DNA of 11,844 nucleotides. It comes from a bacterium (lineage in GTDB: Bacteria; ARS69). This document shows, piece by piece, positions 1 to 11,844 of this stretch. The stretch is taken from positions 1 through 11,844 of the forward strand of contig JALGZR010000139.1 in assembly GCA_025774805.1 (NCBI GenBank). The letters run 5' to 3'. Within the stretch, counting starts at the first letter, position 1, and each line of letters opens with the position of its first letter. The translations under genes were made by a program, and so were the position numbers. The notes under the pieces were generated by a model. That model searched no databases, had not been told where the DNA came from, and worked only from the letters and a program-made list of their open reading frames with translations.

Positions 1-33
1 CACGATCAAGGGTAGGCGGCAGGGCGCGGGGTG

Positions 34-1857
34 TCAACCGTCCAGTCGGCCCGGGGTGGGAACGACGGGTAGGATCGGCCGGCCGCAACGTCCGGAGCCC
101 GCCCGTCGCGGACCGGGGAGGCTCAATCCTTGACCGAGATCGAAGCCGTTCCCGTACCCTTCGTCGTCGAGCCGACCCGCGACACGTCGTCCGTCGCCTG
201 CAGGCACGACCGGTCGAGCCCGCTCAGGGCGCGCACGGCGCGGCGATCGTACTTCGTGTCCGCGCCCTTCTGCAGCAGATCGAGCGCCTCCCGGACCGAG
301 ATCGCGCCGCGATGGGATCGGTCGGACGTCATCGAGTTCGAACGCGTGGGCCGCGATCAACAGATGGGTCGTCAGCGGGATCTCGTCTCCTTTCAGACCG
401 TCGGGGTATCCGCTCCCGTCGGCCCGCTCGTTGTGGTGGCGCACCATCGGCCACACGGAGGCGAGAGCGGGAATCCCCCTCAGGATCCTCTCTCCCGTCA
501 CGGGATACTTTCTCAGGTGCTCGAGCTCCTCGTCGGTGAGGGCGCCCTCCTTGTGCAGGACCGCGTCGGAGATCGTGACCTTCCCGATCCCGTGCATGAG
601 AGCCGCGCGCCGGAGGGTGCGGACCGTGTCGCCGTCGAGCTTGAGGGCCCGCGCCATCTCCTCGCAGTACCGGGCCATGCGGTCACTCCGTCCTCGCGCG
701 TAAGGATCGCGCTCCTCGACGGCCCGGGCGAAGACTCCCAGCAGCGAATCGAGGTCCGCCTCGAGGCGGGCCTGGTTCGTCGACTGACCGAGGGCCACCA
801 GGGCGAGACTCGCGAGATTCTCGAGGACCATCAGATCGGCTTGGGTGAACTCATCCCCCTCCCGGCGATCGTAGACGACGAGGACGCCGTGAAGTGTCTC
901 ACCGAGGAGCAGGGGAACCGCCAGCGTGCTCTTGGGCGCCTTCGAGAGGCCCGGTCCCATCGGCCCCATGCCGGCCACGTCGGTGTTGCGGAGAAGGAGG
1001 GGTCGACGCTCGCGGGCCGCCCTCCCCGGAATGCCCTCGCCGAGCGGGAGGCGGTAGTCCCGGAGACGGTCCGCCTCGTCGCCGGCGGCGGCCAAGGTCA
1101 CGAAGTCGCCGCCCTCTTCGTCCACCCCCACGAAGCACACGGTCCGCGCACAGAGCGCATCGAGGAGCCCCTTCACGAGCGATTCCGGCAGCCCGCTCTC
1201 GTCGGTCGAGGACTGAAGCGCGCGCGCGAGCTCCGTGATCCCGTGCCGCATGCGCTCCTGGCTCCGCTGTGCCTCCTCGGAGCGCTGCTCGAGCTCCGCC
1301 GTGATGCGCTCGATCGTCTCGCTGATCTTGCCGATCTCGTCCTGGCTCGCCTGCCGGATGCGGTGGCTCAAGTCCCCCGAGGCGGTCCGGGTCGCACGGT
1401 CGAGGATATCGAGGAAGACCCGAGCGAGCTCCGCCCGGATGAAATGGAACCCGGCGACCGCCGACGCGAGCATCAACAGGATGACCACGGCGGCGTGCCC
1501 GGAAAAGAATCCGGTCGTGCCTTCCGCCCGCGGTCCGACGAGGTAGATCGCCAGCAGGATCGGCACCAGCGACATCAGCGCGAACCCGATCGTGAACTTG
1601 CGCGAGATGCTCGAAGGCCTCTGCCTCTCTTCCGAGACATCGATCGCGTCCCCGGCCCGGCCGCGCGGCCGGTCCGAGCCTTTGCGTTGCGGTCCGCTCA
1701 ACCCGTCCTCCCCTGCGGATGCGGAGGTCTCCCAGAGTTCGTATCGTCCAAAGAACCGTACGATCTGAGCCCTTAGTTGGCTGGAACGGACCGGGGACGA
1801 AGAGGGCAATCTCTTGCCGGGCATGCTCTTGGCGGCGCCGCCGGAGGCCTCCGACAC
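34..1857 (-). CDS. Membrane HAMP-GAF-HD-GYP protein with degraded HD-GYP site; frameshifted near C-terminus
   Basis: A charged N-terminus (1-86) is followed by two membrane spans (about 88-108 and 121-140), a HAMP linker (140-195, GDLSHRI..QDEIGKI), a GAF sensor domain (about 205-357) and an HD-GYP domain (about 370 on). HD-GYP domains hydrolyse cyclic di-GMP through a two- or three-metal centre. Compared with the consensus, ligand positions are changed: RGHS is RGRS (R390), HD is HG (H422-G423), the HP of the HPxxG motif is YP (Y451), and the Asp of ADxFDAM is His (H504). H474-H475 and GSGYPDGL are kept. Catalysis therefore looks lost, though nucleotide binding may remain. After codon 508 one extra base (333) shifts the frame, and residues 509-607 are nonsense running to 34. 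Restoring the frame ends the protein at 123 (577 residues). GTG start, GAGGG at 1871-1875. Confidence 0.85.
   Translation of the reverse strand: MSEASGGAAKSMPGKRLPSSSPVRSSQLRAQIVRFFGRYELWETSASAGEDGLSGPQRKGSDRPRGRAGDAIDVSEERQRPSSISRKFTIGFALMSLVPILLAIYLVGPRAEGTTGFFSGHAAVVILLMLASAVAGFHFIRAELARVFLDILDRATRTASGDLSHRIRQASQDEIGKISETIERITAELEQRSEEAQRSQERMRHGITELARALQSSTDESGLPESLVKGLLDALCARTVCFVGVDEEGGDFVTLAAAGDEADRLRDYRLPLGEGIPGRAARERRPLLLRNTDVAGMGPMGPGLSKAPKSTLAVPLLLGETLHGVLVVYDRREGDEFTQADLMVLENLASLALVALGQSTNQARLEADLDSLLGVFARAVEERDPYARGRSDRMARYCEEMARALKLDGDTVRTLRRAALMHGIGKVTISDAVLHKEGALTDEELEHLRKYPVTGERILRGIPALASVWPMVRHHNERADGSGYPDGLKGDEIPLTTHLLIAAHAFELDDVRPIPSRRDLGPGGARSAAEGRGHEVRSPRRARPERARPVVPAGDGRRVAGRLDDEGYGNGFDLGQGLSLPGPRRAGSGRCGRPILPVVPTPGRLDG
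123..332 (-). pseudogene. Displaced C-terminal end of the HD-GYP domain
   Basis: The 69 codons from ATG 332 begin MTSDRSHRGAISVREALDLL and continue GADTKYDRRAVRAL, which are the standard closing blocks of an HD-GYP domain (consensus AMTSDRPYR....EAL.EL..GAGTQFDP..V..F). They belong directly after AAHAFEL at 334-336 in the upstream frame; a single surplus base at about 333 separates them. No ribosome-binding site precedes the ATG, so independent translation is not expected. The final ~25 residues (Ser/Thr/Gly-rich, ending SVKD) are not part of the domain. The break is a natural frameshift or a one-base sequencing error. Confidence 0.8.
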
Positions 1858-1875: not shown

Positions 1876-2962
1876 AGGATCTCCCGGAGAGCACCCGGTC
1901 GTAGATCTCCGCCGTCCGCTCCACGACCCGATCCCAGTCGTACTCGGCCTCGATCCGCTCCCGGCCCCGCGCCCCCATCTCGGCCCGCCGGTCCTCCTCT
2001 CCGTGGAGCCGTCGCAGGCGGTTTCCGAGATCGGCGACGTCTCCGGTCCGGAACGTCTCCCCGACCCCCTCCACGAGCTCGCGGTTCTCCGGGATGTCGC
2101 TCGCGAGCACGGGGCGGCCGTAGCTCATCGCCTCCAGGAGCGCGATCGAGAGACCCTCCAGACTCGAGGGCACGACCACGAGCGCGGCGTGCTGCTGGAG
2201 GGCGGCCAGGTCGTCTCCGTAGACCGATCCCACGAAGCGCACTCCCGGGTCGGCGATCCGCCGACACGATTCCACGTAGTCGTCCGTGAAGTGCCCCTCC
2301 CCCGCGACGACCAGAGGCCAGTCGCAGACCGCCCCCCGGTGCGCCTCGAGCAGAACGTGCAGTCCCTTCTCGGGAACGAGTCGACCCACGAAGAGGAGGT
2401 ACCCGCCCGGATCGATCCCCCACTTCTCCAGTGGCGACGTGGGTCCGGGGGGCGGAATCGGCGTCCCGTTCGGAACGTAGTGGACGCGGCGGGCCCCCGT
2501 CGCGGTGAAGTGCCCTTCCAGCGTTCGGGAGACGACGATCGTCGCATCGGGAAGGCGGGTGGCCGTCCATTCGCAGAGGCGCAGGAAGGTCCGGGCGACC
2601 CTCCCCCACTTCTCCCGCCGCCAGTCCAATCCGTGAACGGTGATCACCACGCGCTTCGCTCTCACACGAGGCATCCACGCCAGGGCGGACGGGCCGAGCG
2701 CGTGGTAGTGGACGATGTCGGCCTCGGAGAAGAGCGCGTGCGCACTGGAGAGGGCGACGTGCGTGATCGCGTCGAGGTGCTTGGTGGGAACCGACGGCAG
2801 GCGAACGAGCTCCAGGCCGTTCAAGGACGCGCCGGCCGGCGTGTAGTGCGTCCGGCAGTAGACCCGGACCCCGTGCCCGCGGCTGACGAGCCTCGAGCCG
2901 AGCTCCTCGACGTGACGTTCGATCCCGCCGTACGTCGCGGGCACGCCCTTCTGGCCGATCAT
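1874..2962 (-). CDS. GT4 glycosyltransferase, DUF1972-type N-terminus
   Basis: The 362 residues from ATG 2962 read as a GT-B glycosyltransferase of the group whose N-terminus carries IGQKGVPATYGGIERHVEEL, a DUF1972-like signature found in rhamnosyltransferase-type enzymes. Further motifs are DIVHYHALGPSALAW, TVHGLDWRREKWGR, VPNGTPIPPP, LLFVGRLVPEKGLHVLLEA (Arg/Lys diphosphate pair) and an E-x7-E motif in LEGLSIALLEAMSYG, then PVLASDIPENREL. The sugar is not predictable. Start choice: ATG 2962 forms an ATGA overlap with the previous stop but would cut off the first beta strand. Relatives begin M-[RK]-I-A-M-I-G, and here the codon aligned with that Met is ATC at 2972-2974, seven bases after GAGGAGG. 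The true start may therefore be ATC (366 residues). A longer open frame upstream lies within the previous gene and is not protein-like. Confidence 0.9.
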   Translation of the reverse strand: MIGQKGVPATYGGIERHVEELGSRLVSRGHGVRVYCRTHYTPAGASLNGLELVRLPSVPTKHLDAITHVALSSAHALFSEADIVHYHALGPSALAWMPRVRAKRVVITVHGLDWRREKWGRVARTFLRLCEWTATRLPDATIVVSRTLEGHFTATGARRVHYVPNGTPIPPPGPTSPLEKWGIDPGGYLLFVGRLVPEKGLHVLLEAHRGAVCDWPLVVAGEGHFTDDYVESCRRIADPGVRFVGSVYGDDLAALQQHAALVVVPSSLEGLSIALLEAMSYGRPVLASDIPENRELVEGVGETFRTGDVADLGNRLRRLHGEEDRRAEMGARGRERIEAEYDWDRVVERTAEIYDRVLSGRS

Positions 2963-4188
2963 CGCGATGCGGATGACGCCACCTCCTCGAGGATCGAGAG
3001 CATCGACCGGATCTGTCCGGCCAGACTGTACTCCCCCTCGAGAACCTCTCGTCCTCTCCGCCCCATGCGGTGGGCGAGCTCGGGATCCCGCTGAAGTCGG
3101 GAAAGCCCCTCGGCCAGCCCCTCGGCATCTCCCGAATCGAACAGTAGCCCCGTCTCCCCGTCCCGAACGATCTCGGGAATGCCCCCGATCCGCGCCCCGA
3201 CCACTGGCACTCCCGAGGCGCACGCCTCGAGAGCGGCGATCGGAGCGTTCTCGTACCACTCGGACGGGAGGACCACGGCGCGCGCGCCCCGAATCCGATC
3301 GAACAGGTCGCGGCGCTCCAGGTATCCGGGGAAGTCGACCCGTCCCGGCGCCAAGCGCTCGGCGTCACGGCGCACCCGGTGCTCCTCCGGGCCGTCGCCC
3401 GCGATCGTGAGGCGAAGGTCGGGGCGGGAGGCGACGGCGGCGACCAAGGTCCCGAGTCCCTTCTCCCTCGACAGGCGTCCGACGTAGAGAAAGCCGTCCC
3501 CCGGTCGGTCCGCGGCGCGAAAGGCCTCCGGGTCGAGGCCGTTGGGAACGAACGACACCCGTTCGGCGCTCATTCCGAATTCCACGAGCTTGCGGACGAG
3601 GAAGCGACTCGGGGAGATCACCCGGCGGATTCCCCGCTCCAGCGTTCGGCGATGACGGTGCCAGGTCATCTCGAGAAACGCCACCACCGAGGCGCTCCGG
3701 CTCGCCCGGACGCAGCGGTGGCGAATCACGGGGTGAAAGCGGCCGCCCTTGCACCGCTCGCAGACCTCCCCCCCCGTGTAGAGCAGGTAGTTCGGACAGA
3801 TCACCTTGTAGTCGTGAAGGGTGTGCACCGCCCCCACCCCCTCCTCCCGGAGCACGTCGACGATCGAAGGAGAGAGCTGGTGGTGGAAGTTGTGCAGGTG
3901 GGCGACGTGGGGACGGGTCGCGTGGATCAGGCGGCGGATCCGGCGGGCCGCCACCCCCGAATGGAGGACGCGGACCGCCGCCCTCAGCCGGGCGACCGGG
4001 GATCGCGCGGAGTAATCGACCTCGGGCACGAAATACTCCGCCCAGGGGGTCTCCCGATTCGCGGGGGACGCCATCGCGAAGGGAATGACCTCGTGACCCG
4101 CGCTCTCGTAGCCGCGGGCGAGATCGAGCATCACGCGCTCGGATCCGCCCTTCGCCCAGTAGAATTTGTTGACGACCAGTATTCTCAT
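2959..4188 (-). CDS. GT4 family glycosyltransferase with a four-cysteine insert
   Basis: This 409-residue GT-B glycosyltransferase starts MRILVVNKFYWAKGGSERV, with the acceptor-domain Gly loop at 14-15. It has HVAHLHNFHHQLSPSIV (94-110) and TLHDYKVICPNY (123-134). The donor domain contains FVPNGLDPEAF (213-223), LYVGRLSREKGLGTLVAAV (234-252) with R238 and K243 as likely diphosphate ligands, and E313-x7-E321 (YENAPIAALEACASG). Cysteines 131, 143, 146 and 159 form a C-x11-C-x2-C-x12-C pattern, seen in a subset of GT4 enzymes and suggestive of structural metal binding. It probably adds a sugar to the lipid-linked repeat unit in the cytoplasm; donor and linkage unknown. ATG at 4188 gives the canonical N-terminus but no Shine-Dalgarno sequence is visible. 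The TGA overlaps the ATG of the next gene (2959-2962). Confidence 0.92.
   Translation of the reverse strand: MRILVVNKFYWAKGGSERVMLDLARGYESAGHEVIPFAMASPANRETPWAEYFVPEVDYSARSPVARLRAAVRVLHSGVAARRIRRLIHATRPHVAHLHNFHHQLSPSIVDVLREEGVGAVHTLHDYKVICPNYLLYTGGEVCERCKGGRFHPVIRHRCVRASRSASVVAFLEMTWHRHRRTLERGIRRVISPSRFLVRKLVEFGMSAERVSFVPNGLDPEAFRAADRPGDGFLYVGRLSREKGLGTLVAAVASRPDLRLTIAGDGPEEHRVRRDAERLAPGRVDFPGYLERRDLFDRIRGARAVVLPSEWYENAPIAALEACASGVPVVGARIGGIPEIVRDGETGLLFDSGDAEGLAEGLSRLQRDPELAHRMGRRGREVLEGEYSLAGQIRSMLSILEEVASSASR
2982..2988 (-). promoter_or_regulatory. Strong Shine-Dalgarno inside the end of the upstream GT gene
   Basis: GAGGAGG is seven bases from ATC 2974 but nineteen bases from ATG 2962. 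The spacing favours initiation at ATC, an unusual start codon. The ATG remains possible through coupling with the overlapping stop. Confidence 0.5.
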
Positions 4189-4442
4189 GGTCGGCGGAGA
4201 GTCGTCGGCGTCGCCGACGATCGGGTCACGGGACGTCCCGGGACCGCGGCGTGGCCCCGGCGAGCCAGCGCCGGAGGATCCACGCCGCCGGAACCAGCGG
4301 CTTCGCCTTCATTCTGGGTGCGACGGTACAGCTCATCCAGCACCGGATCGAACAGCTCCGGACCGCCTCCAGGACATCCGGCGTTCCGGAGTCGGCCTCG
4401 ATCTCCTCCCGGCTCTTCTCGAGCAGACTTCCGAGCGGCCGA
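4189..4442. other. 254-base gap with inverted repeats and a short protein-like stretch
   Basis: This is the only sizeable gap in an otherwise tightly packed cluster. Toward the GT4 gene it holds three inverted repeats: a perfect 19-base one at 4202-4220 (9-base arms, single central base), a 12-base palindrome at 4229-4240, and 6-base arms at 4257-4262 / 4269-4274. None is followed by a T run on the minus strand, so intrinsic termination is not supported. Toward the DegT gene, minus-strand 4358-4441 reads as acidic, protein-like sequence (LLEKSREEIEADSGTPDVLEA), and the neighbouring frame continues as ELFDPVLDELYRRTQNE to about 4308. No start codon with a ribosome-binding site is visible. It may be an untranslated spacer with an internal regulatory region, a gene relic, or both. 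I saw no convincing -35/-10 pair. Confidence 0.5.
4202..4220. repeat. Perfect 9-base inverted repeat just upstream of a GT4 start codon
   Basis: Arms TCGTCGGCG and CGCCGACGA are separated by one base. In RNA this would fold as a 7-base stem with a 5-base loop, 13 bases ahead of the ATG at 4188. That start has no recognisable Shine-Dalgarno sequence, so a hairpin here could influence initiation. There is no T tract for termination. GC-rich DNA produces such repeats by chance fairly often. Confidence 0.5.
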
Positions 4443-5555
4443 TCAGGCTCCCGCTCCCACGAGCTCCTTCAGGACCGAGACCACGTACTCGGGAGCGGCC
4501 TCGTCCATTTCGGCATAGAGGGGGAGGGACATCACTTCCCGGGCCAGTGCTTCCGAGTGAGGGAACGCGCCCTCGCCGAAGCCCAATCGGGAGTATGCGG
4601 GTTGGAGATGCAGGGGAATCGGATAGTGGACACCCACGCCCACGCCCCGCTCCCGCAGGAGAGGAAGCAGCTCGTCCCGTTCCGGGACCCGGACGACGTA
4701 CAGATGGTAGACGTGGCGGAGGTTGCCGTTGCGCGGCTTCAGCGGCCGGATGTCGGTCCCGATGAGAAGCTCGTCGTAGCGCGCCGCGAATCGGCGCCGT
4801 CCCTCCGTCCAGTCCTCGAGGTGTCTCAGCTTCACGTCGAGGATCGCCGCCTGCAGCCCGTCCAGACGGTAGTTGAAGCCCTCGACCTGGTGCTCGTACT
4901 TCGTGCTGCGGCCATGGTCGCGCAGCAACCGGATCCGCTCGGCGAGCACCGCGTCGTCGGTCGTGATCCCGCCCCCGTCTCCGTACGCCCCCAGGTTCTT
5001 GCCCGGATAAAAGCTGAAGCAGGCCACGCGTCCAATCGAGCCGCACCGCTTGCCCTTGTACTCCGCTCCGTGCGCCTGCGCCGAGTCCTCGATCACGGTG
5101 ATCCCGTGACGCTCGGAGATCTCCAGGATCGGATCCATGTCCGCCGGCTGCCCGTAGATGTGAATGGGGACGACCGCCCTCGTACGGGGGCCGATGGCCG
5201 CCTCGAGCTGGCCGGGATCGATGCAGCCGTCCTCCTCGCGAGAGTCGATGAGCCGGATCGTGGCCCCTGTCTGGGTGATCGCCTCGGTCGTCGCGATGAA
5301 CGTGTACGGAGTGGTGATCACTTCATCTCCCGGCCCGATGTCCAGGGCCGAGAGCGCCAGGTGGAGGGCGGCCGTTCCGCTGGCGACCCCGATCGCGTGC
5401 CGGGTTCCGCAGTACTCCGCGAAGTGCTCCTCGAATCGCGCGAGCGCCGGACCCCCGACGAACGCGCAGCTCTCCAGAAGCTCCTCGATCGCCGGCGTAA
5501 GCTCACCGCGGATCGTGTGGTACTGGGCCCGAAGGTCGTTGAACGGCACTTTCAC
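4443..5555 (-). CDS. DegT/DnrJ/EryC1/StrS-family PLP-dependent sugar aminotransferase
   Basis: This 370-residue protein is full length for the family. It converts a keto-sugar nucleotide to the amino sugar, usually using glutamate as amino donor. Visible features: VPFNDLRAQY (N-terminus), GVASGTAALHLALSALDIGPGDEVITTPYTF (56-86, cofactor-phosphate region), IEDSAQAHGA (155-164, D157 contacting the PLP ring nitrogen), CFSFYPGKNLGAYGDGG (179-195) with the Schiff-base lysine K186, and FNYRLDGLQAAI (227-238). The start is GTG at 5555; GGGAGG at 5565-5570 sits nine bases upstream, and GTG overlaps the oxidoreductase stop as GTGA. Pairing with a Gfo/Idh/MocA oxidoreductase recalls the wlbA-wlbC / wbpB-wbpE step making a 3-amino UDP-sugar, but no N-acetyltransferase of that pathway is in view. 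The substrate is therefore inference. Confidence 0.93.
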   Translation of the reverse strand: MKVPFNDLRAQYHTIRGELTPAIEELLESCAFVGGPALARFEEHFAEYCGTRHAIGVASGTAALHLALSALDIGPGDEVITTPYTFIATTEAITQTGATIRLIDSREEDGCIDPGQLEAAIGPRTRAVVPIHIYGQPADMDPILEISERHGITVIEDSAQAHGAEYKGKRCGSIGRVACFSFYPGKNLGAYGDGGGITTDDAVLAERIRLLRDHGRSTKYEHQVEGFNYRLDGLQAAILDVKLRHLEDWTEGRRRFAARYDELLIGTDIRPLKPRNGNLRHVYHLYVVRVPERDELLPLLRERGVGVGVHYPIPLHLQPAYSRLGFGEGAFPHSEALAREVMSLPLYAEMDEAAPEYVVSVLKELVGAGA

Positions 5556-5914
5556 GGTCGTGTACCTCCCGGAGTCGCCCCCGATGGGGAGGACCCCGTT
5601 GGATTCACGGCGAGCTTCTCGCCGTTACGTCGGATCGAGTCGCACGCGCGCTCCATGACTCGAACCACGGCCAGGCCGGCGTGCCCGTCGGACCGTGGCT
5701 GCTCCTGCTTCTGGATGCAATGCACGAAGTGCTGGCATTCGTTTTTCAGGGGCTCGCTGTCGTCGAGGCGCGGAGTGTAGATGTCGCCGAACCGGTACGA
5801 CAACTGAAACTCCCCGAAGGTATCGTAATGCGGCTGGACAGTCATCCCCTTGTCGTAGACCCGGATCTTCTCCTGGGTCGACACGTCGTCGTACACGAGC
5901 ATCTTCTGTCGCCC
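5552..5914 (-). pseudogene. Displaced C-terminal part of the Gfo/Idh/MocA oxidoreductase
   Basis: About 120 residues begin GRQKMLVYDDVSTQEKIRV and contain a GEFQLSYRFGDIYTP block and EPLKNECQHFVHCIQ, followed by MERACDSIRRNGEKLAV. These are recognisable C-terminal blocks of WlbA-type oxidoreductases, in a frame offset from the N-terminal half. Joining the halves at about 5914 gives only ~328 residues. From my knowledge of the family, some 20-25 residues (the strand with the SWLDP..K.R motif, just before the MLVYDD block) are absent at the junction, so this is a deletion plus frameshift rather than a simple one-base slip. No ribosome-binding site precedes the internal ATG at 5902, so separate translation is unlikely. 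The TGA (5552-5554) overlaps the DegT GTG start. Confidence 0.8.
5565..5570 (-). promoter_or_regulatory. Ribosome-binding site fixing a GTG start (DegT aminotransferase)
   Basis: GGGAGG lies nine bases before GTG at 5555, inside the end of the upstream oxidoreductase frame. The GTG overlaps the upstream TGA, and the protein then begins with the family-typical KVPFNDLRAQY. Confidence 0.75.
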
Positions 5915-6540
5915 GGATACTCGAGGTGGATGAACGCCACGTCCTCGATCCCGGACTGGATGTACGCCTGTCCCTGGGCGCTGACGGTGAGCGGCTCGGA
6001 TCCGAGCATGTAATTGAGAATCGAGACGTCGTGGGGAGCGAGATCCCAGACGACGTTGATGTCCTCCTGGAACAGACCGAGATTCACCCGCGTCGTGCTG
6101 ATGTAATAGATGTGCCCGAGCTCGCCGGACGTGATGAGCTCCTTCATCTTGTTGACCGCGGCGGTATACACAAACGTGTGCCCGGCCATCAGGGTCAGTC
6201 CCCGTTCCTCGGCAAAGTGATTCATCTCCTCCGCCTCGGACACGCTCGCCGCCATGGGCTTCTCCACGAGGAGGTGCTTGCCCGCCTCCAGGAACCGCAT
6301 CGCGATCGGGTGGTGCGTCGACACGGGCGTCGCGATGAGGGCCGCATCCACCTCCTGATCCGCGACGATCTGATCGACATCGGTCGTCGTCTCGACGCTC
6401 GGGTAGAGCCGGGAGATGTAGCGCAGGCGCTCCTTGTTCAGATCGCAGGCGACCTTCATCCGGACGTTGGGGAATTGGGTGAAGTTCCGGATGAGATTGG
6501 GGCCCCAGTACCCGCAACCGATGACGGCGACTGTTAGCAA
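5842..6540 (-). CDS. Gfo/Idh/MocA-family sugar oxidoreductase, N-terminal part (frameshifted; broken gene)
   Basis: The first ~209 residues are a clear NAD(P)-dependent sugar dehydrogenase of the Gfo/Idh/MocA family, resembling WlbA/WbpB-type enzymes that oxidise UDP-sugar acids or acetamido sugars. Visible are GCGYWGPN (8-15, dinucleotide loop), LIATPVSTHHP (68-78), LLVEKPMAAS with E93-K94-P95, MAGHTFVYTAAV (118-129) and WDLAPHDVSILNYMLG (165-180) with the likely catalytic H170. After LEYPG (codon 210, about 5911-5913) the frame turns into Arg/Cys/Thr-rich nonsense ending at 5842. The genuine C-terminus continues in another frame from about 5914 (see separate entry), and the usual segment joining the two halves looks missing. 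The start is TTG at 6540, with AAGGAG at 6548-6553. As read, the product lacks its substrate-binding C-terminus and is probably inactive unless the break is a sequence error. Confidence 0.85.
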   Translation of the reverse strand: MLTVAVIGCGYWGPNLIRNFTQFPNVRMKVACDLNKERLRYISRLYPSVETTTDVDQIVADQEVDAALIATPVSTHHPIAMRFLEAGKHLLVEKPMAASVSEAEEMNHFAEERGLTLMAGHTFVYTAAVNKMKELITSGELGHIYYISTTRVNLGLFQEDINVVWDLAPHDVSILNYMLGSEPLTVSAQGQAYIQSGIEDVAFIHLEYPGDRRCSCTTTCRPRRRSGSTTRG

Positions 6541-6547
6541 GGGGAAG

Positions 6548-6553
6548 CTCCTT
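6548..6553 (-). promoter_or_regulatory. Ribosome-binding site fixing a TTG start (oxidoreductase)
   Basis: AAGGAG lies seven bases before TTG at 6540. It supports TTG as the start because the protein then begins LTVAVIGCGYWG, the normal N-terminus of the family, and there is no ATG nearby in frame. Confidence 0.75.
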
Positions 6554-6574
6554 CCAGTTGAACGGGCGGTCGCC

Positions 6575-8107
6575 TCAGTACGCTCCCTCGCCGAAGATCA
6601 CGACGGGAACGGTTCGAAAGAGGATCTCGAGGTCCGTCTTGAGGGACCAGTGATCGATGTAGTAGAGATCGAGCAGAACCATCTCGTCGAAGGGGACGCT
6701 GGAGCGACCGCTGACCTGCCACAGGCCGGTCAGGCCCGGCTTGGCCCGAAGCCGCTTCTTGTGCCACTCCTTGTAGTGGTTCAGCTCGTAGAAGATGGGC
6801 GGTCGGGGACCGACGATGCTCATCTCTCCCTTGGCCACGTTCAGCAGCTGGGGGAGCTCGTCGAGGCTGGTGCGCCGCAGGATGTGGCCGATCGGCGTCA
6901 CGCGCGGATCCGTGGTCATCTTGAAGACCTGTTCCCGTCTCAACGCATCCGAGAAGTTCAGCTCCTGACCGGTGATGAGCTTGGTGGCGTACTCCCGATG
7001 GATCGAGTCGTCCGTCTCCAGCTTCATCGTGCGGAACTTCCACATGGTGAATTCGCGCCCGTGCTGCCCGGCGCGCACCTGTCGGAAGAGAACCGGTCCC
7101 GGGGAGAAGATCTTGATCAGGAGCGAGATGAACAGGATCAGTGGATGGAAGAGCGTGAGCAGCGACACGGAGACGATCAGATCGAACAGACGCTTCATCA
7201 GCATGCCCAGGTGGGGCGTCCCCTCGGACCGGATGTCGTACGTAGGCACTCCGTCGATGGTCTCCACGTGAGTGTCGGAGGCCACGAGGTGGAGAATGTC
7301 GCTCACGAGGCGAACGGGAAGCTGCGCCTTCATGCACCGCGACATCATGGCCAGGGTGCCCTCCTGGCCCAGACTCGGCATGGCCAGAAAGACCTGATCG
7401 GCATGCAGCTCGCGGGTGACTCTCGAGAGTTCGTCGATCGACCCCCGCACGACGACCCCGTCGATCTCCTGCCCGATCTTCTCGGGGTCGTCGTCGACGA
7501 ACCCGACGACCTCGTACATCAGGGCCTCGTTCGTCCGGATGCGCTGGAGAAACCGCTTGCCCTCGACCCCGGCGCCGACGACCACGATGCGCTGAATGCG
7601 GCGGCGGGCCTGGAACCGGCCGAGGTAGAGCGACCGGAGGAACAGCAGACGGACGATCAGGGAGAGCCAGAGCGTGAACAGCCACGCGAAGCCGAGGACG
7701 AGGCGCTTTTCGAAGAAGTAGTTCGTCCGGGTGAGGAAGCCGAGCGCCAGGACCAGGAGGCACCCCAGGGTGATGGTCTTCAGGATTCCCGCGGTCTGGT
7801 CGAAGAGCGTCCCTATGACCTTCGGCCGGTAGAGACCGTTGACGCCGTGGATGACGATCCAGAGGGGAAGCAGCAGGATCAGGGTGATGTAGTGCTCGGT
7901 CCGCACGGGCACCAGAGGCCCCTGGAAGAGGCCCGTGGAGAAGCGCATCCAGTAGCCGCCCAGAAAGCCCGCGAACAGAACCGCCGCGTCGAGGACCATC
8001 GCGGCGATCTCGAGTCGGAGCTCCGAGGGGCGGGTCGGCTCGCGCGGGGCGGGAGTCGGATCCGGGGAGGCGCCCGCGGGGATTGGTGTCTTGACCTGGC
8101 TGTTCAT
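6575..8107 (-). CDS. Polyprenyl glycosylphosphotransferase (initiating sugar-1-phosphate transferase, WbaP/EpsE-like)
   Basis: This 510-residue protein is expected to transfer a sugar-1-phosphate from a UDP-sugar to undecaprenyl phosphate, starting repeat-unit synthesis on the inner membrane. A Pro-rich soluble N-terminus (1-30) precedes four membrane spans (about 36-55, 73-92, 108-126, 134-158). A Rossmann-like CoA-binding-type domain follows ([15 protein letters not shown], 173-187; GFVDDD, 202-207). Next come the [13 protein letters not shown] membrane hairpin (305-333) and the Bac_transf catalytic domain: [19 protein letters not shown] (355-362), [21 protein letters not shown] with the conserved D416-E417 pair, MSIVGPRPP (429-437), [14 protein letters not shown] (456-469) and DLYYIDHWS (480-488). 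This is the full EPS_sugtrans architecture at normal length. ATG at 8107 has GGAG four bases upstream. It follows the preceding GT gene by 47 bases and precedes the oxidoreductase by 34. Confidence 0.95.
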
Positions 8108-8154
8108 CCCGCTCCGTTCCGCCGGGGGATCACCCGGCGCGATCTCGAAGTATT

Positions 8155-9345
8155 CTAACGAATTACGGTCTCCCGATCGAGCCGATTCTCGTCGGGGAGG
8201 CCGCTCTCTTCACCCAGCACGGCCCGGTAGACCTCGAGGGTCCGGTCGACGACGCGGTCGACCCGGAATCGCTCCTCGGCGATGCGACGGCCGCGGAGGC
8301 CGTGGGCCGCGCTCCGGCCGGGGTCCTCCAGGTAGCCGCGGAGGGCCTCGGCGAGACGCTCCGCATCTCCGGGGGGAACCAGCGCGCCCGTGACTCCGTC
8401 CTCCACGAGATACCTGGTGCCGCCGACGTCCGTGGCGACCACCGGGAGCCCGACCGCCATGGCCTCCATGATCGCGACCGAGGCGGTCTCCTGGCGGGAG
8501 GGAAGGACCAGCACGCCGGCCCCGGCCAGCTCGCGCGCCAGCGACTCGGGCGGCACGGCCCCCGGCAGCTCCACGCGCAGTCCGATCCCCAGGGCCGCCG
8601 CGCGCCGTCGCAGAGACTCGACGTAGCCGGCATCGTCGGCCGGTCCCACGAGACGGAGGCGGAAGTCGACGCCCCCGGACGCGAGGCGCCCGGCCGCCTC
8701 CAGCAAGGTCTCCGGGTCCTTCAGGGGCACGATGCGACCGGAGAAGACCACCACCGAGGGATCTCCCGGTCCATCCCGGTGAAAGAACTCGTCGGCCACC
8801 GGATTCACGATCTCGTGCGTCCGCAACGAGCGGAGGCGATCGCCGAAGTACTCCCGAACGTACGGGCTGATCACGATCAGATGCCGGGCCCGCTTCAGAC
8901 ACATCCGTTCCATCCGGGTGATCGCCCACGCCCGCACCCGGTTCGCTACCCCGGCGGGGAGTTGCCGTCCGTACGCGTCCTGGATTCCGTGCGCGGTCGT
9001 CACCCACGGCCCACCCGCGTCGGCCGCGCCCAGGGACGCCGCTCCGAGCACGTGGGCATGGACGATGTCCGGGGCGATACTCGCCAGGGCCCGCGCCGTC
9101 GTGCGTCGTTCCCCGAAGCCCAGGGTCAGGTTCCCGAAGCGGGACGACGCCGGGAACCGGTGCACCCGCACCCCCTCCAGCGTCTCGACCGTCGAGTCCT
9201 TCCGTCCCAGCTCGCAGCTCACGACGTGCACCTCGAGCCCGCTCCGGCGGGCCATCTCCGTGGCCAGACGGCGCACCACCGCCTGAACGCCGCCGACTCC
9301 CCCGTCGGGGGACCGCGGATACTCGGAGACGAGGGCGATTCTCAT
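8155..9345 (-). CDS. GT4 family glycosyltransferase (GT-B fold)
   Basis: This 396-residue retaining glycosyltransferase has two Rossmann-like domains. The N-terminal acceptor domain starts MRIALVSEYPRSPDGGVGGVQ with the Gly-rich loop near residue 15-20, and has DIVHAHVLGAAS (93-104) and TTAHGIQ (116-122). The C-terminal nucleotide-sugar domain has FSGRIVPLKDPETLLEAA (201-218), where R204 and K209 fit the diphosphate-binding pair. The GT4 E-x7-E motif is E286 to E294 (QETASVAIMEAMAVG), followed by PVVATDVGG. It probably extends the lipid-linked oligosaccharide at the cytoplasmic membrane; the sugar is not predictable. The ATG at 9345 has AAGGAGG (9353-9359) seven bases upstream and overlaps the previous stop as ATGA. 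A much longer in-frame extension exists but lies inside the preceding gene and is not protein-like. Stop is TAG at 8155. Confidence 0.9.
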   Translation of the reverse strand: MRIALVSEYPRSPDGGVGGVQAVVRRLATEMARRSGLEVHVVSCELGRKDSTVETLEGVRVHRFPASSRFGNLTLGFGERRTTARALASIAPDIVHAHVLGAASLGAADAGGPWVTTAHGIQDAYGRQLPAGVANRVRAWAITRMERMCLKRARHLIVISPYVREYFGDRLRSLRTHEIVNPVADEFFHRDGPGDPSVVVFSGRIVPLKDPETLLEAAGRLASGGVDFRLRLVGPADDAGYVESLRRRAAALGIGLRVELPGAVPPESLARELAGAGVLVLPSRQETASVAIMEAMAVGLPVVATDVGGTRYLVEDGVTGALVPPGDAERLAEALRGYLEDPGRSAAHGLRGRRIAEERFRVDRVVDRTLEVYRAVLGEESGLPDENRLDRETVIR

Positions 9346-10895
9346 GCTCCGGCCTCCTTCTCTTCCGGCAACGCGGGCCACGGGATGCGGCGGCGGGGCT
9401 CGGGAGCGGCCCGCACGGGGAGATCCCGCACGTGACGTTCGTACATCCCGACGGTGGTTCCCATGAGGGCGAACATGAGCACGTTTACGTACTCGAAGTA
9501 CCGCATCTCGAAGAACATCGCGTTGAGGAAGTACCCGACCATCGCGCACCACAAGCAGACGATCCAGTCGCGGGACAAAAGGCCCTCGTGGGGCAATCGG
9601 CGGTACGCCTTGAGAGAGGTCCGCCAGATGAAGAAGTAGATCAGCAGGTACGGAATGAAACCGCTCAGGCCCTGCTCGGCGAAGATCGTGGCCAGCATGT
9701 TGTGCTGGACCGCCTTGCCGCCGACGCCGGGGTCGATGTAACCGAAGAAGGGAACGTGGCGCGGGCGCCGGTACTGGAGGGCGACCTCGGGGAAGTTCAT
9801 GAAGCCGCACCCGAAGAGGGGGTTGTCCGCGAAGACCTCGGCGGTCTCGTACAGAAGCTCGATCCGGTGGTGCACGGTGTTGATCGTGGCGAGCCCGCCC
9901 TTCTCTCGGTCCGCGGTCGAGAGATTGTCCCAGTTCAGGAACACGACGACCATTCCGGCGAGAACGAGACCCGTGCACATGGTCCGGAGACGCCGGCTCC
10001 AGATCACGCCCGTGAAGAGGGCCCCGACGAATCCCAGGTAGACCGAGCGCGTCATGGTGAACACGAGCGTGGCCGGAGTCACGAGGACGAGCACGAGCTG
10101 GAGGATCCGGGGAAACATGCCCTTCAGGCGGCTCAGAAAGAGCATCGAGGGAAAGAAACCCATGATCATCACGGTCCCGAGAACGGCGGGCTGGATGAAG
10201 ATCCCCCGGACCCGAAAGCCGAGGCGGGCCAATCCCCGGTCCCCCAGGTTCGGATCGACGATGAACTTCGGGAAGACGAGCTCGTACCACTTCAACTTCT
10301 CGAAGACGCCCATCACCCCCATGTAGATCCCGATCAGGACCAGATACCCCACGAGGATCTGGACCTGGTGCTTCTGCTTGATGGCCGCGCGGGCGAAGTA
10401 GAAGAACATGAACGGTAAGAGATACCCCCGCATCAGCATCTGCCACCGGGGGGCCTGGCCCGAGGTCACCACCGAGATGAAGAGCATCACGAGGAAGGCG
10501 ATCATCGCCTTCTCGATGGCCCCGAACCTGGGTACCTCCCGCAACGCCATGAGGATCTGGGCCAGGAAGATCAGATACAGGAGCATCGCCACGATGCGCG
10601 CGGGATAGAGATCGGGGAACCCCGGCAGTCGAATCCAGAACTCGTGTTGGAAGAAGATCACGGCGGTGAGGTAGAACAGGAATCCCCACACGATGTCGCG
10701 CCGGAGGAGCAGGAAGACCACGATCGCGACGTTGAGCAGGCCGAGCGCGGCGACCAGGATCGTCACGTCCATGACCGCCCCGAGATACACGCTGAGAGCG
10801 ACCATGAGTCCGAGGAGGATCGTCCGGACCAGAGGAGTCAGGCGGATCGGCTCGGGCCTTCCGGCGGAGAGGGTCTGTCCCAGATCGAGGCTCAT
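9342..10895 (-). CDS. O-antigen ligase / polymerase family membrane protein
   Basis: This is a 517-residue, almost wholly hydrophobic protein with about 10-12 membrane spans. A Wzy_C/O-antigen ligase-like region covers roughly residues 225-425. Visible motifs are RGIFIQPAVLG (230-240), TMTRSVYLGFVGALF (280-294), a large extracytoplasmic loop (about 320-400), and QHNMLATIFAEQGLSG (397-412), which matches the conserved H-N..L...E.G..G motif whose His is important in WaaL-type ligases. In this family the protein either polymerises lipid-linked repeat units (Wzy) or ligates glycan to an acceptor (WaaL/PglL-like); sequence alone does not decide which. The start is ATG at 10895, with GGGGAGG at 10901-10907 five bases upstream. 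The frame stays open further upstream, but that part overlaps the preceding gene and reads as Arg/Gly/Pro-rich noise. The stop overlaps the next ATG (9342-9345). Confidence 0.85.
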   Translation of the reverse strand: MSLDLGQTLSAGRPEPIRLTPLVRTILLGLMVALSVYLGAVMDVTILVAALGLLNVAIVVFLLLRRDIVWGFLFYLTAVIFFQHEFWIRLPGFPDLYPARIVAMLLYLIFLAQILMALREVPRFGAIEKAMIAFLVMLFISVVTSGQAPRWQMLMRGYLLPFMFFYFARAAIKQKHQVQILVGYLVLIGIYMGVMGVFEKLKWYELVFPKFIVDPNLGDRGLARLGFRVRGIFIQPAVLGTVMIMGFFPSMLFLSRLKGMFPRILQLVLVLVTPATLVFTMTRSVYLGFVGALFTGVIWSRRLRTMCTGLVLAGMVVVFLNWDNLSTADREKGGLATINTVHHRIELLYETAEVFADNPLFGCGFMNFPEVALQYRRPRHVPFFGYIDPGVGGKAVQHNMLATIFAEQGLSGFIPYLLIYFFIWRTSLKAYRRLPHEGLLSRDWIVCLWCAMVGYFLNAMFFEMRYFEYVNVLMFALMGTTVGMYERHVRDLPVRAAPEPRRRIPWPALPEEKEAGA

Positions 10896-11844
10896 GCCGT
10901 CCTCCCCTCGTAGAGAAGGACCTTCACCCCCGTGTATTCCCACCGACCCTCTTCCCGAAGCGTCTCTTCGAAGATGCGACGGATCCGGGACTCGGGGGCC
11001 ACGTCCCACCATCGCGTGAGCACCAGCCAGACACGCCCCCCGTGCTCCCGGGCCTCGGCGACGTGGGTGCGCATCTCCTCGTCGGTGCGAAGGAATCGCT
11101 TGTGGACGTGCAGGAGACGGGCTTTCCCGTCCGCGGCGTCGGCAAAGTAGTATCGGAAGGGGCGAAACGCGTAGATGACCACGACGGCGTCCCCCGGTCG
11201 CTCGTTCTCCAGGATGAGGCGGGCCGCGGAGCGGCAATCCTCTTTGCCGTAGGCCGGGTGGAAGAAGTGATTTGCCAGGGAGACGACGATCAGCAAGGCG
11301 GCCACGAGCGCGGAACCCCGGACGAGGCGTCCTCGACCCGACCAGCCGTGGGCGAGCAAAGCGAGAAAGACGGGGAAGAAGACGACGAGGTAGCGGGGAT
11401 GGAACGTCTTGATCTCCCGAAGCGCGAGAAACACGGAGAGAACCAGCGGCACCCCGATGACGGACAGCAGGAAGGAGCCCCTCCCCCGCCGAACGGCGTC
11501 CCTGAACCCCACGATCGCCGCCGTGGCCACGGCCGCGATCCCGATCCCGATCACCGGGGCGTGCGGCAGGAGCGCCTGGAACGAGCGGTCGAGGTGCAGG
11601 GAGCGCAGGGACGGGCCGAGCGAGTAGCCGTAGACGAAGGACCAGAACACGAACGGCACCTCGACCGGGGAGAAGCTCGACTGCTCACGCAGGGGCATGC
11701 CCACGGGAGAGGCGGCGTCGACGAACAGGCGCTCGGCCCCCATCCTCGAAAACCAATCGACAAACCAGGGCAGAAAAACGAGCCCCACGAAACCGAGAAC
11801 TCCGACCCAGCCGAGAAGGAGTCCTCGCGGGCGGGGCCGGCGCA
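10892..11844 (-). CDS. GT-C (PMT/ArnT-like) membrane glycosyltransferase, C-terminal part, cut by window edge
   Basis: The open frame runs off the right edge: it continues without a stop from 11788 to 11844, so GTG at 11788 is not the true start. About 316 residues are visible. They begin in a hydrophobic segment ending LPWFVDW, followed by two or three more membrane spans and a FHPRYLVVFFPVFLALLAHGW segment. The last ~120 residues are soluble (AARLILENERPGDAVVV, FRPFRYYFAD). This layout, with an RYL..P motif in the last membrane block and a periplasmic tail, matches the C-terminal half of GT39/GT83-type enzymes, which move sugar from polyprenyl-phosphate sugar on the outer face of the inner membrane. 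The catalytic N-terminal loop lies outside the window, so donor and acceptor are unknown. Its TGA overlaps the ATG of the next gene (ATGA, 10892-10895), suggesting translational coupling. Confidence 0.75.
   Translation of the reverse strand, partial: RRPRPRGLLLGWVGVLGFVGLVFLPWFVDWFSRMGAERLFVDAASPVGMPLREQSSFSPVEVPFVFWSFVYGYSLGPSLRSLHLDRSFQALLPHAPVIGIGIAAVATAAIVGFRDAVRRGRGSFLLSVIGVPLVLSVFLALREIKTFHPRYLVVFFPVFLALLAHGWSGRGRLVRGSALVAALLIVVSLANHFFHPAYGKEDCRSAARLILENERPGDAVVVIYAFRPFRYYFADAADGKARLLHVHKRFLRTDEEMRTHVAEAREHGGRVWLVLTRWWDVAPESRIRRIFEETLREEGRWEYTGVKVLLYEGRTA

Follow-up and report, generated by a model that had tools for sequence, protein, structure and literature searches.

A membrane-anchored HD-GYP protein with five of seven metal ligands replaced beside a polysaccharide locus, a candidate metal-free receptor for cyclic di-GMP

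What might an HD-GYP protein do at the end of a polysaccharide locus when most of its metal ligands have been replaced? The question is raised by a gene on an 11,844-nucleotide stretch of DNA (the window), which corresponds to the entire contig C255 in a metagenome-assembled genome of 284 contigs that is 96% complete with 5% contamination. The gene starts with a GTG at 1857 on the minus strand and extends in full to about 122; the part up to a frame break (338..1857, minus strand, residues 1-507) was defined from the open reading frame, Pfam, hydropathy and an AlphaFold2 model. Hydropathy indicates two transmembrane helices at about residues 90-108 and 122-140, and Pfam recovers a weak, sub-threshold HAMP match at 152-191, a GAF_2 domain above cut-off at 226-356 and an HD_5 domain (PF13487) at 375-507, the last scoring 104.8 bits against a curated cut-off of 27.2 and thus placing the protein in the HD-GYP family. 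The membrane protein with HAMP and GAF domains described in the initial annotation of this DNA is thereby recovered, HAMP being the weak element. The AlphaFold2 model has a mean pLDDT of 84, with block means of 91-97 across the HD part. In a Foldseek comparison PmGH (4mcw, E 8e-17) comes first among PDB structures and DvhD (9rbz) next. Both the model confidence and the top match indicate an HD-GYP fold for residues 370-507, the portion of the domain before the frame break, at which the model stops, leaving the last helices outside it.

PmGH is an active GAF-HD-GYP phosphodiesterase (PDB 4MCW) whose metal ligands are H189, H221, D222, H250, H276, H277 and D305, together with E185 (PMC4159591). 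A profile alignment to PmGH, which shares the GAF domain and the HD-GYP fold with the membrane-anchored window protein, places R390, H422, G423, Y451, H475, N476 and H504 opposite its seven core ligands, giving the string RHGYHNH where HHDHHHD is usual. Five of the seven metal ligands shared by active phosphodiesterases are hence replaced, all on the minus strand: R390 (CGG, 688..690) stands for H189, G423 (GGG, 589..591) for D222, the Asp of the HD pair, Y451 (TAT, 505..507) for H250, N476 (AAC, 430..432) for H277, the second His of the HH pair, and H504 (CAC, 346..348) for D305. The initial annotation had named R390, G423, Y451 and H504 correctly, and its count was too low by N476: it had placed a retained HH pair at 474-475, whereas PmGH E-H-H-E-R aligns opposite H474-H475-N476-E477-R478, so that the pair falls one residue later and only its first His is kept. 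Retained are H422 (H221), H475 (H276), the catalytic pair D384/K426 (D183 and K225 in PmGH) and, as had been claimed, the GYP loop, which against the consensus HHExxDGxGYP reads H475-N476-E477 followed by DGSGYPDG, with GYP present and the second His replaced. The equivalent of PmGH E185 is Y386, which aligns the window protein with the other HD-GYP subgroup, where this position is Tyr or Phe (PMC4159591).

Such depletion is exceptional: all seven ligands are present in 106 of 115 other HD-GYP domains (80 of these loci were picked up by scanning for a pattern that covers the HH region, and 33 domains were not pattern-selected), and none of the remainder lacks more than one. The changes also gather at the metal site. 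Among columns at least 90% conserved in the 115 homologues, the window protein differs at 5/7 ligands and at 2/18 other positions (p=0.007), and with only the 33 homologues not selected by pattern the contrast is 5/7 against 3/15 (p=0.03). Where the two same-locus orthologues described below agree with each other, changes on the window branch affect five of the seven ligands and 15 of 80 other columns (p=0.006); with residues 504 and 507 set aside, the figures are 4/6 and 14/79 (p=0.017). The least secure calls are those of H504 and E507, the final residues before the frame break.

Orthologues of the gene occur in two other genera of the family (G003, contig C216, and G004, contig C591), at 53% and 42% identity and with identical domain order. 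Both keep six of the seven ligands, and the last Asp is Asn in each. As judged from these alignments, the loss of five ligands is specific to the window lineage and not family-wide, except at the last position, within a phylum of only five genomes, with a best match in the genome collection of 31% identity and with no congeneric relatives among those compared. The initial annotation had looked to orthologues sharing the substitutions as support for a pseudo-enzyme and to intact ones as a sign of decay. The substitutions are not in fact shared, the orthologues being intact apart from the Asp-to-Asn change; nonetheless the protein as a whole is not evolving faster, with 47 lineage-specific changes over 417 columns in the window protein against 47 in that of G003, distributed as 9 against 14 in the TM-HAMP part, 18 against 22 in the GAF domain and 15 against 11 in the HD part without ligands. 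Four neighbouring genes likewise show no accelerated evolution on the window side. Since the changes are concentrated at the ligands while the rest of the protein is not accelerated, simple decay is disfavoured.

Directly upstream of the HD-GYP gene lies a family 4/1 glycosyltransferase (1877..2962, minus strand) that is syntenic in G002, G003 and G004, and upstream of this the polysaccharide locus (2959..11842), also on the minus strand. In order it contains a glycosyltransferase (2959-4188), the last 49 codons of a radical-SAM gene (4298-4444), a DegT aminotransferase (4443-5555), a broken Gfo/Idh/MocA oxidoreductase (about 5555-6540), a sugar transferase (6575-8107), a further glycosyltransferase (about 8155-9345), a Wzy_C/O-antigen ligase-like polymerase (9342 to about 10880) and a membrane protein without a Pfam match (10892-11842). 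In G003 and G004 the HD-GYP gene occupies the same place, between this family 4/1 glycosyltransferase and a trio of tRNA-Gly, tRNA-Cys and tRNA-Leu, whereas the complete genome of a fourth genus, G002, has the locus and the tRNAs and lacks the gene. Its tie to the polysaccharide locus, proposed earlier from position, is therefore recurrent but not obligatory. The locus is also damaged. The Gfo gene is short of 70 nt relative to its G004 orthologue, at about 5908-5920 on the minus strand, which breaks the frame and reflects either a real deletion or an assembly fault. The radical-SAM gene is intact between the DegT and glycosyltransferase genes in G002 and G004; a search of the window's genome for the missing part found no intact orthologue, the best match being 36% identical. 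Together with the lack of a SPOR-type gene described below, this damage points either to erosion of the locus or to internal deletions in the contig. Elsewhere the same genome has matches to seven GGDEF and two PilZ domains, and to four further HD-GYP domains whose aligned ligands are intact, so that the cell has the signal as well as further candidate phosphodiesterases.

The frame break involves one base at 336..340 (about 337, minus strand). Past the break the assembled reading frame reads on to 34 in the wrong register, and the remainder of the domain is coded from about 335 to 122 in another frame: this C-terminal segment (122..336, minus strand; SMTSDRSHRGAIS...ASISVKD-stop) matches the C-termini of the orthologues. 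The break lies at the edge of a 114-base sequence common to contig C268, which begins exactly at the break, is identical over these 114 bases and then diverges; contig C49 shares exactly 114 identical bases with the other end of the window (11731-11844). These overlaps mark where the contig joins its neighbours and, being of constant length, resemble those left by a de Bruijn assembler, with the break at a branch of the graph, for which reason we treat the frame break as unreliable: it is likely to be an error in itself and may reflect an assembly or strain-mixture effect. Programmed frameshifting was considered as a cause, and we saw no evidence for it. C268 runs on into the expected tRNAs and hence is the true continuation of the window contig. 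The alternative that C268 is a second, intact copy of the gene was rejected, given that it starts at the graph branch, holds the 3' end only and has the tRNA synteny of a continuation; holding only the 3' end, it cannot report the ligand codons. At the left end of the window (1-337), the overlap with C268 suggests a mixture of strains.

With respect to catalysis, a single Ala at H189, D222, H250 or H277 essentially abolishes the activity of PmGH (PMC4159591). The corresponding positions are all replaced here, and hydrolysis should accordingly be gone; from sequence, we consider catalysis almost certainly lost, and the pseudo-enzyme without hydrolysis that had been suggested is well supported on this point.

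A precedent for what such a domain might do instead is DvhD of Desulfovibrio vulgaris (PDB 9RBZ/9RC0), which binds c-di-GMP with a Kd of about 99 nM without metal or hydrolysis, responds by splaying its stalk helices and regulates an adhesin protease; its HD motif is SQ and its HH pair MN (PMC13090378). Both are membrane proteins in which a sensor-type domain and a stalk precede the HD-GYP domain, and both have lost the HD and HH motifs (HG and HN in the window protein) and the last Asp, with Asn as the second residue of the HH pair in each. They differ in that DvhD retains the equivalents of H189 and H250, both lost here, and carries a dCache domain in the periplasm as well as a PAS domain, in contrast to the HAMP-GAF arrangement of the window protein, whose transmembrane helices are separated by only about 13 residues, leaving almost no periplasmic part and no periplasmic output domain of the DvhD type. 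Adhesin protease-type genes, as regulated by DvhD, are absent from the window. Of the DvhD contacts to c-di-GMP, Y523, L577 and Y621 align with Y386, L440 and Y484, and M646, R650 and R653 are conserved only in the C-terminal segment beyond the frame break, which as assembled removes them and separates the HD-GYP domain from the contact segment; Y652 is His. At the bridging site K520, P567 and R569 correspond to R383, S430 and A432, so that this site is not preserved.

Other degenerate HD-GYP proteins are known, and the window protein is a further one. PA2572 of Pseudomonas aeruginosa, a YN-GYP variant, has a domain reported to be enzymatically inactive and nevertheless shows phenotypes, and an unconventional Bdellovibrio HD-GYP protein (Lovering 2011) is described as enzymatically inactive where it is cited in PMC3749722, the source also for PA2572. 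The likeness to PA2572 is one of description; its HD pair is YN, whereas the window protein keeps the His and has Gly for the Asp. The Bdellovibrio protein, which we take to be Bd1817, is absent among the PDB sequence matches and is likewise comparable by description alone. A literature search for HD-GYP together with 'pseudoenzyme' gave no match.

Taken together, we favour, at a probability of about one half, the reading that the window protein is a pseudo-phosphodiesterase acting, as DvhD does, as a c-di-GMP receptor without metal, in the service of the neighbouring polysaccharide locus. Its ancestor would have been an HD-GYP protein at the end of the same locus, as in the sister genera; in the window lineage five of the seven ligands would then have been replaced, with the fold, the GYP loop, D384/K426 and the sensor domains kept. 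Made by the GGDEF proteins of the cell, c-di-GMP would bind the metal-free HD-GYP cleft of a dimer and shift its helical stalk, altering contacts with a cytoplasmic or membrane partner belonging to the polysaccharide machinery, while the GAF domain would tune the response. Because only about 13 residues lie between the transmembrane helices, the putative receptor is expected to act on this machinery from the cytoplasmic side. Nucleotide binding is inferred here from the aligned contacts and the analogy with DvhD. Against a receptor stand the contact residues beyond the break, the His at Y652, the Ser and Ala at the bridging P567 and R569, the short link between the transmembrane helices, which leaves no output domain in the periplasm like that of DvhD, and the orthologues that do not share the changes; moreover, the broken or deleted neighbouring genes make locus decay or poor assembly possible, and it is the eroded locus, or the internal deletions of the contig, that holds our confidence at only about one half.

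Several of these observations could be read as signs of a dying gene. If this genome is losing its polysaccharide locus to decay, the HD-GYP gene may be a pseudogene dying with it, which would accommodate the frame break at about 337, the shortened Gfo gene, the radical-SAM remnant, for which the genome has no intact orthologue elsewhere, and the ligands retained in the same-locus orthologues. The clustering of changes at the ligand sites and the unaccelerated remainder of the protein and its four neighbours speak against this, as does the segment after the break, where 5 of 217 coding bases differ from C268 before the stop (two nonsynonymous and three synonymous differences) against 15 of 120 beyond it (p=0.06 without the shared 114 bases), and we consider a pseudogene rather improbable. 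That the true gene has normal ligands, misread through sequencing or assembly error, would be in keeping with a metagenome assembly of this contig number and contamination and with a frame break at a graph branch, next to H504 and E507. Yet random errors would not pick out ligand codons, and in such a GC-rich genome CAC and GAC are the usual His and Asp codons, from which those of R390 (CGG) and G423 (GGG) are each two bases away. Single base-call errors are accordingly unlikely, in agreement with the earlier remark that there is more change here than one sequencing error could cause, and an explanation by error altogether is very improbable.

Equally remote is the prospect that the protein has kept enzymatic activity, whether through a rearranged or different set of metal ligands or on another substrate: H422, H475, D384 and K426 remain and PmGH D305A retains some activity, but of the five ligands lost, four are each essential to PmGH (PMC4159591). 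A dead HD-GYP domain might also dispense with the nucleotide and act purely as a protein-protein scaffold by contacting partners, a role suggested for inactive GGDEF/EAL/HD-GYP proteins. The unconserved bridging P567 and R569, the His at Y652 and the precedent of PA2572, inactive yet with phenotypes (PMC3749722), are consistent with this; the retention of Y386, L440 and Y484 in the canonical cleft and of the later Met and two Arg argues for nucleotide binding instead, and we hold a pure scaffold to be unlikely.

Returning to the metal-free receptor, the orthologue series permits a more specific and tentative suggestion, which we consider somewhat doubtful, that an enzyme was converted stepwise into a cyclic-dinucleotide receptor at one conserved place, the last Asp becoming Asn in the sister genera and four more ligands changing in the window. 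This would have happened independently from DvhD, in a protein that lacks a periplasmic output domain. If true, nature would here have supplied an enzyme and a receptor that represent the states before and after the change. HD-GYP domains that have lost activity have received little study, and only for DvhD does a structure show c-di-GMP bound without metal; orthologues that retain or lack the metal site at a single locus would make it possible to test how an enzyme turns into a receptor and which residues are enough for binding. Otherwise the window protein would be unremarkable, a signalling protein encoded next to polysaccharide genes.

Gene content at the HD-GYP position differs between the genera. 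In G003 (L037:1078-1530) and G004 (L038:2282-2938) a small gene, absent from the window, lies between the glycosyltransferase and HD-GYP genes; Pfam confirms a SPOR domain in the G004 product, the G003 product looks similar, and the G004 protein found no match when searched against the window's genome. G002 has a glycogen-synthase-like gene (L127:6563-8107, minus strand) between the glycosyltransferase and the tRNA-Gly-Cys-Leu trio, at the position that the HD-GYP gene holds elsewhere.
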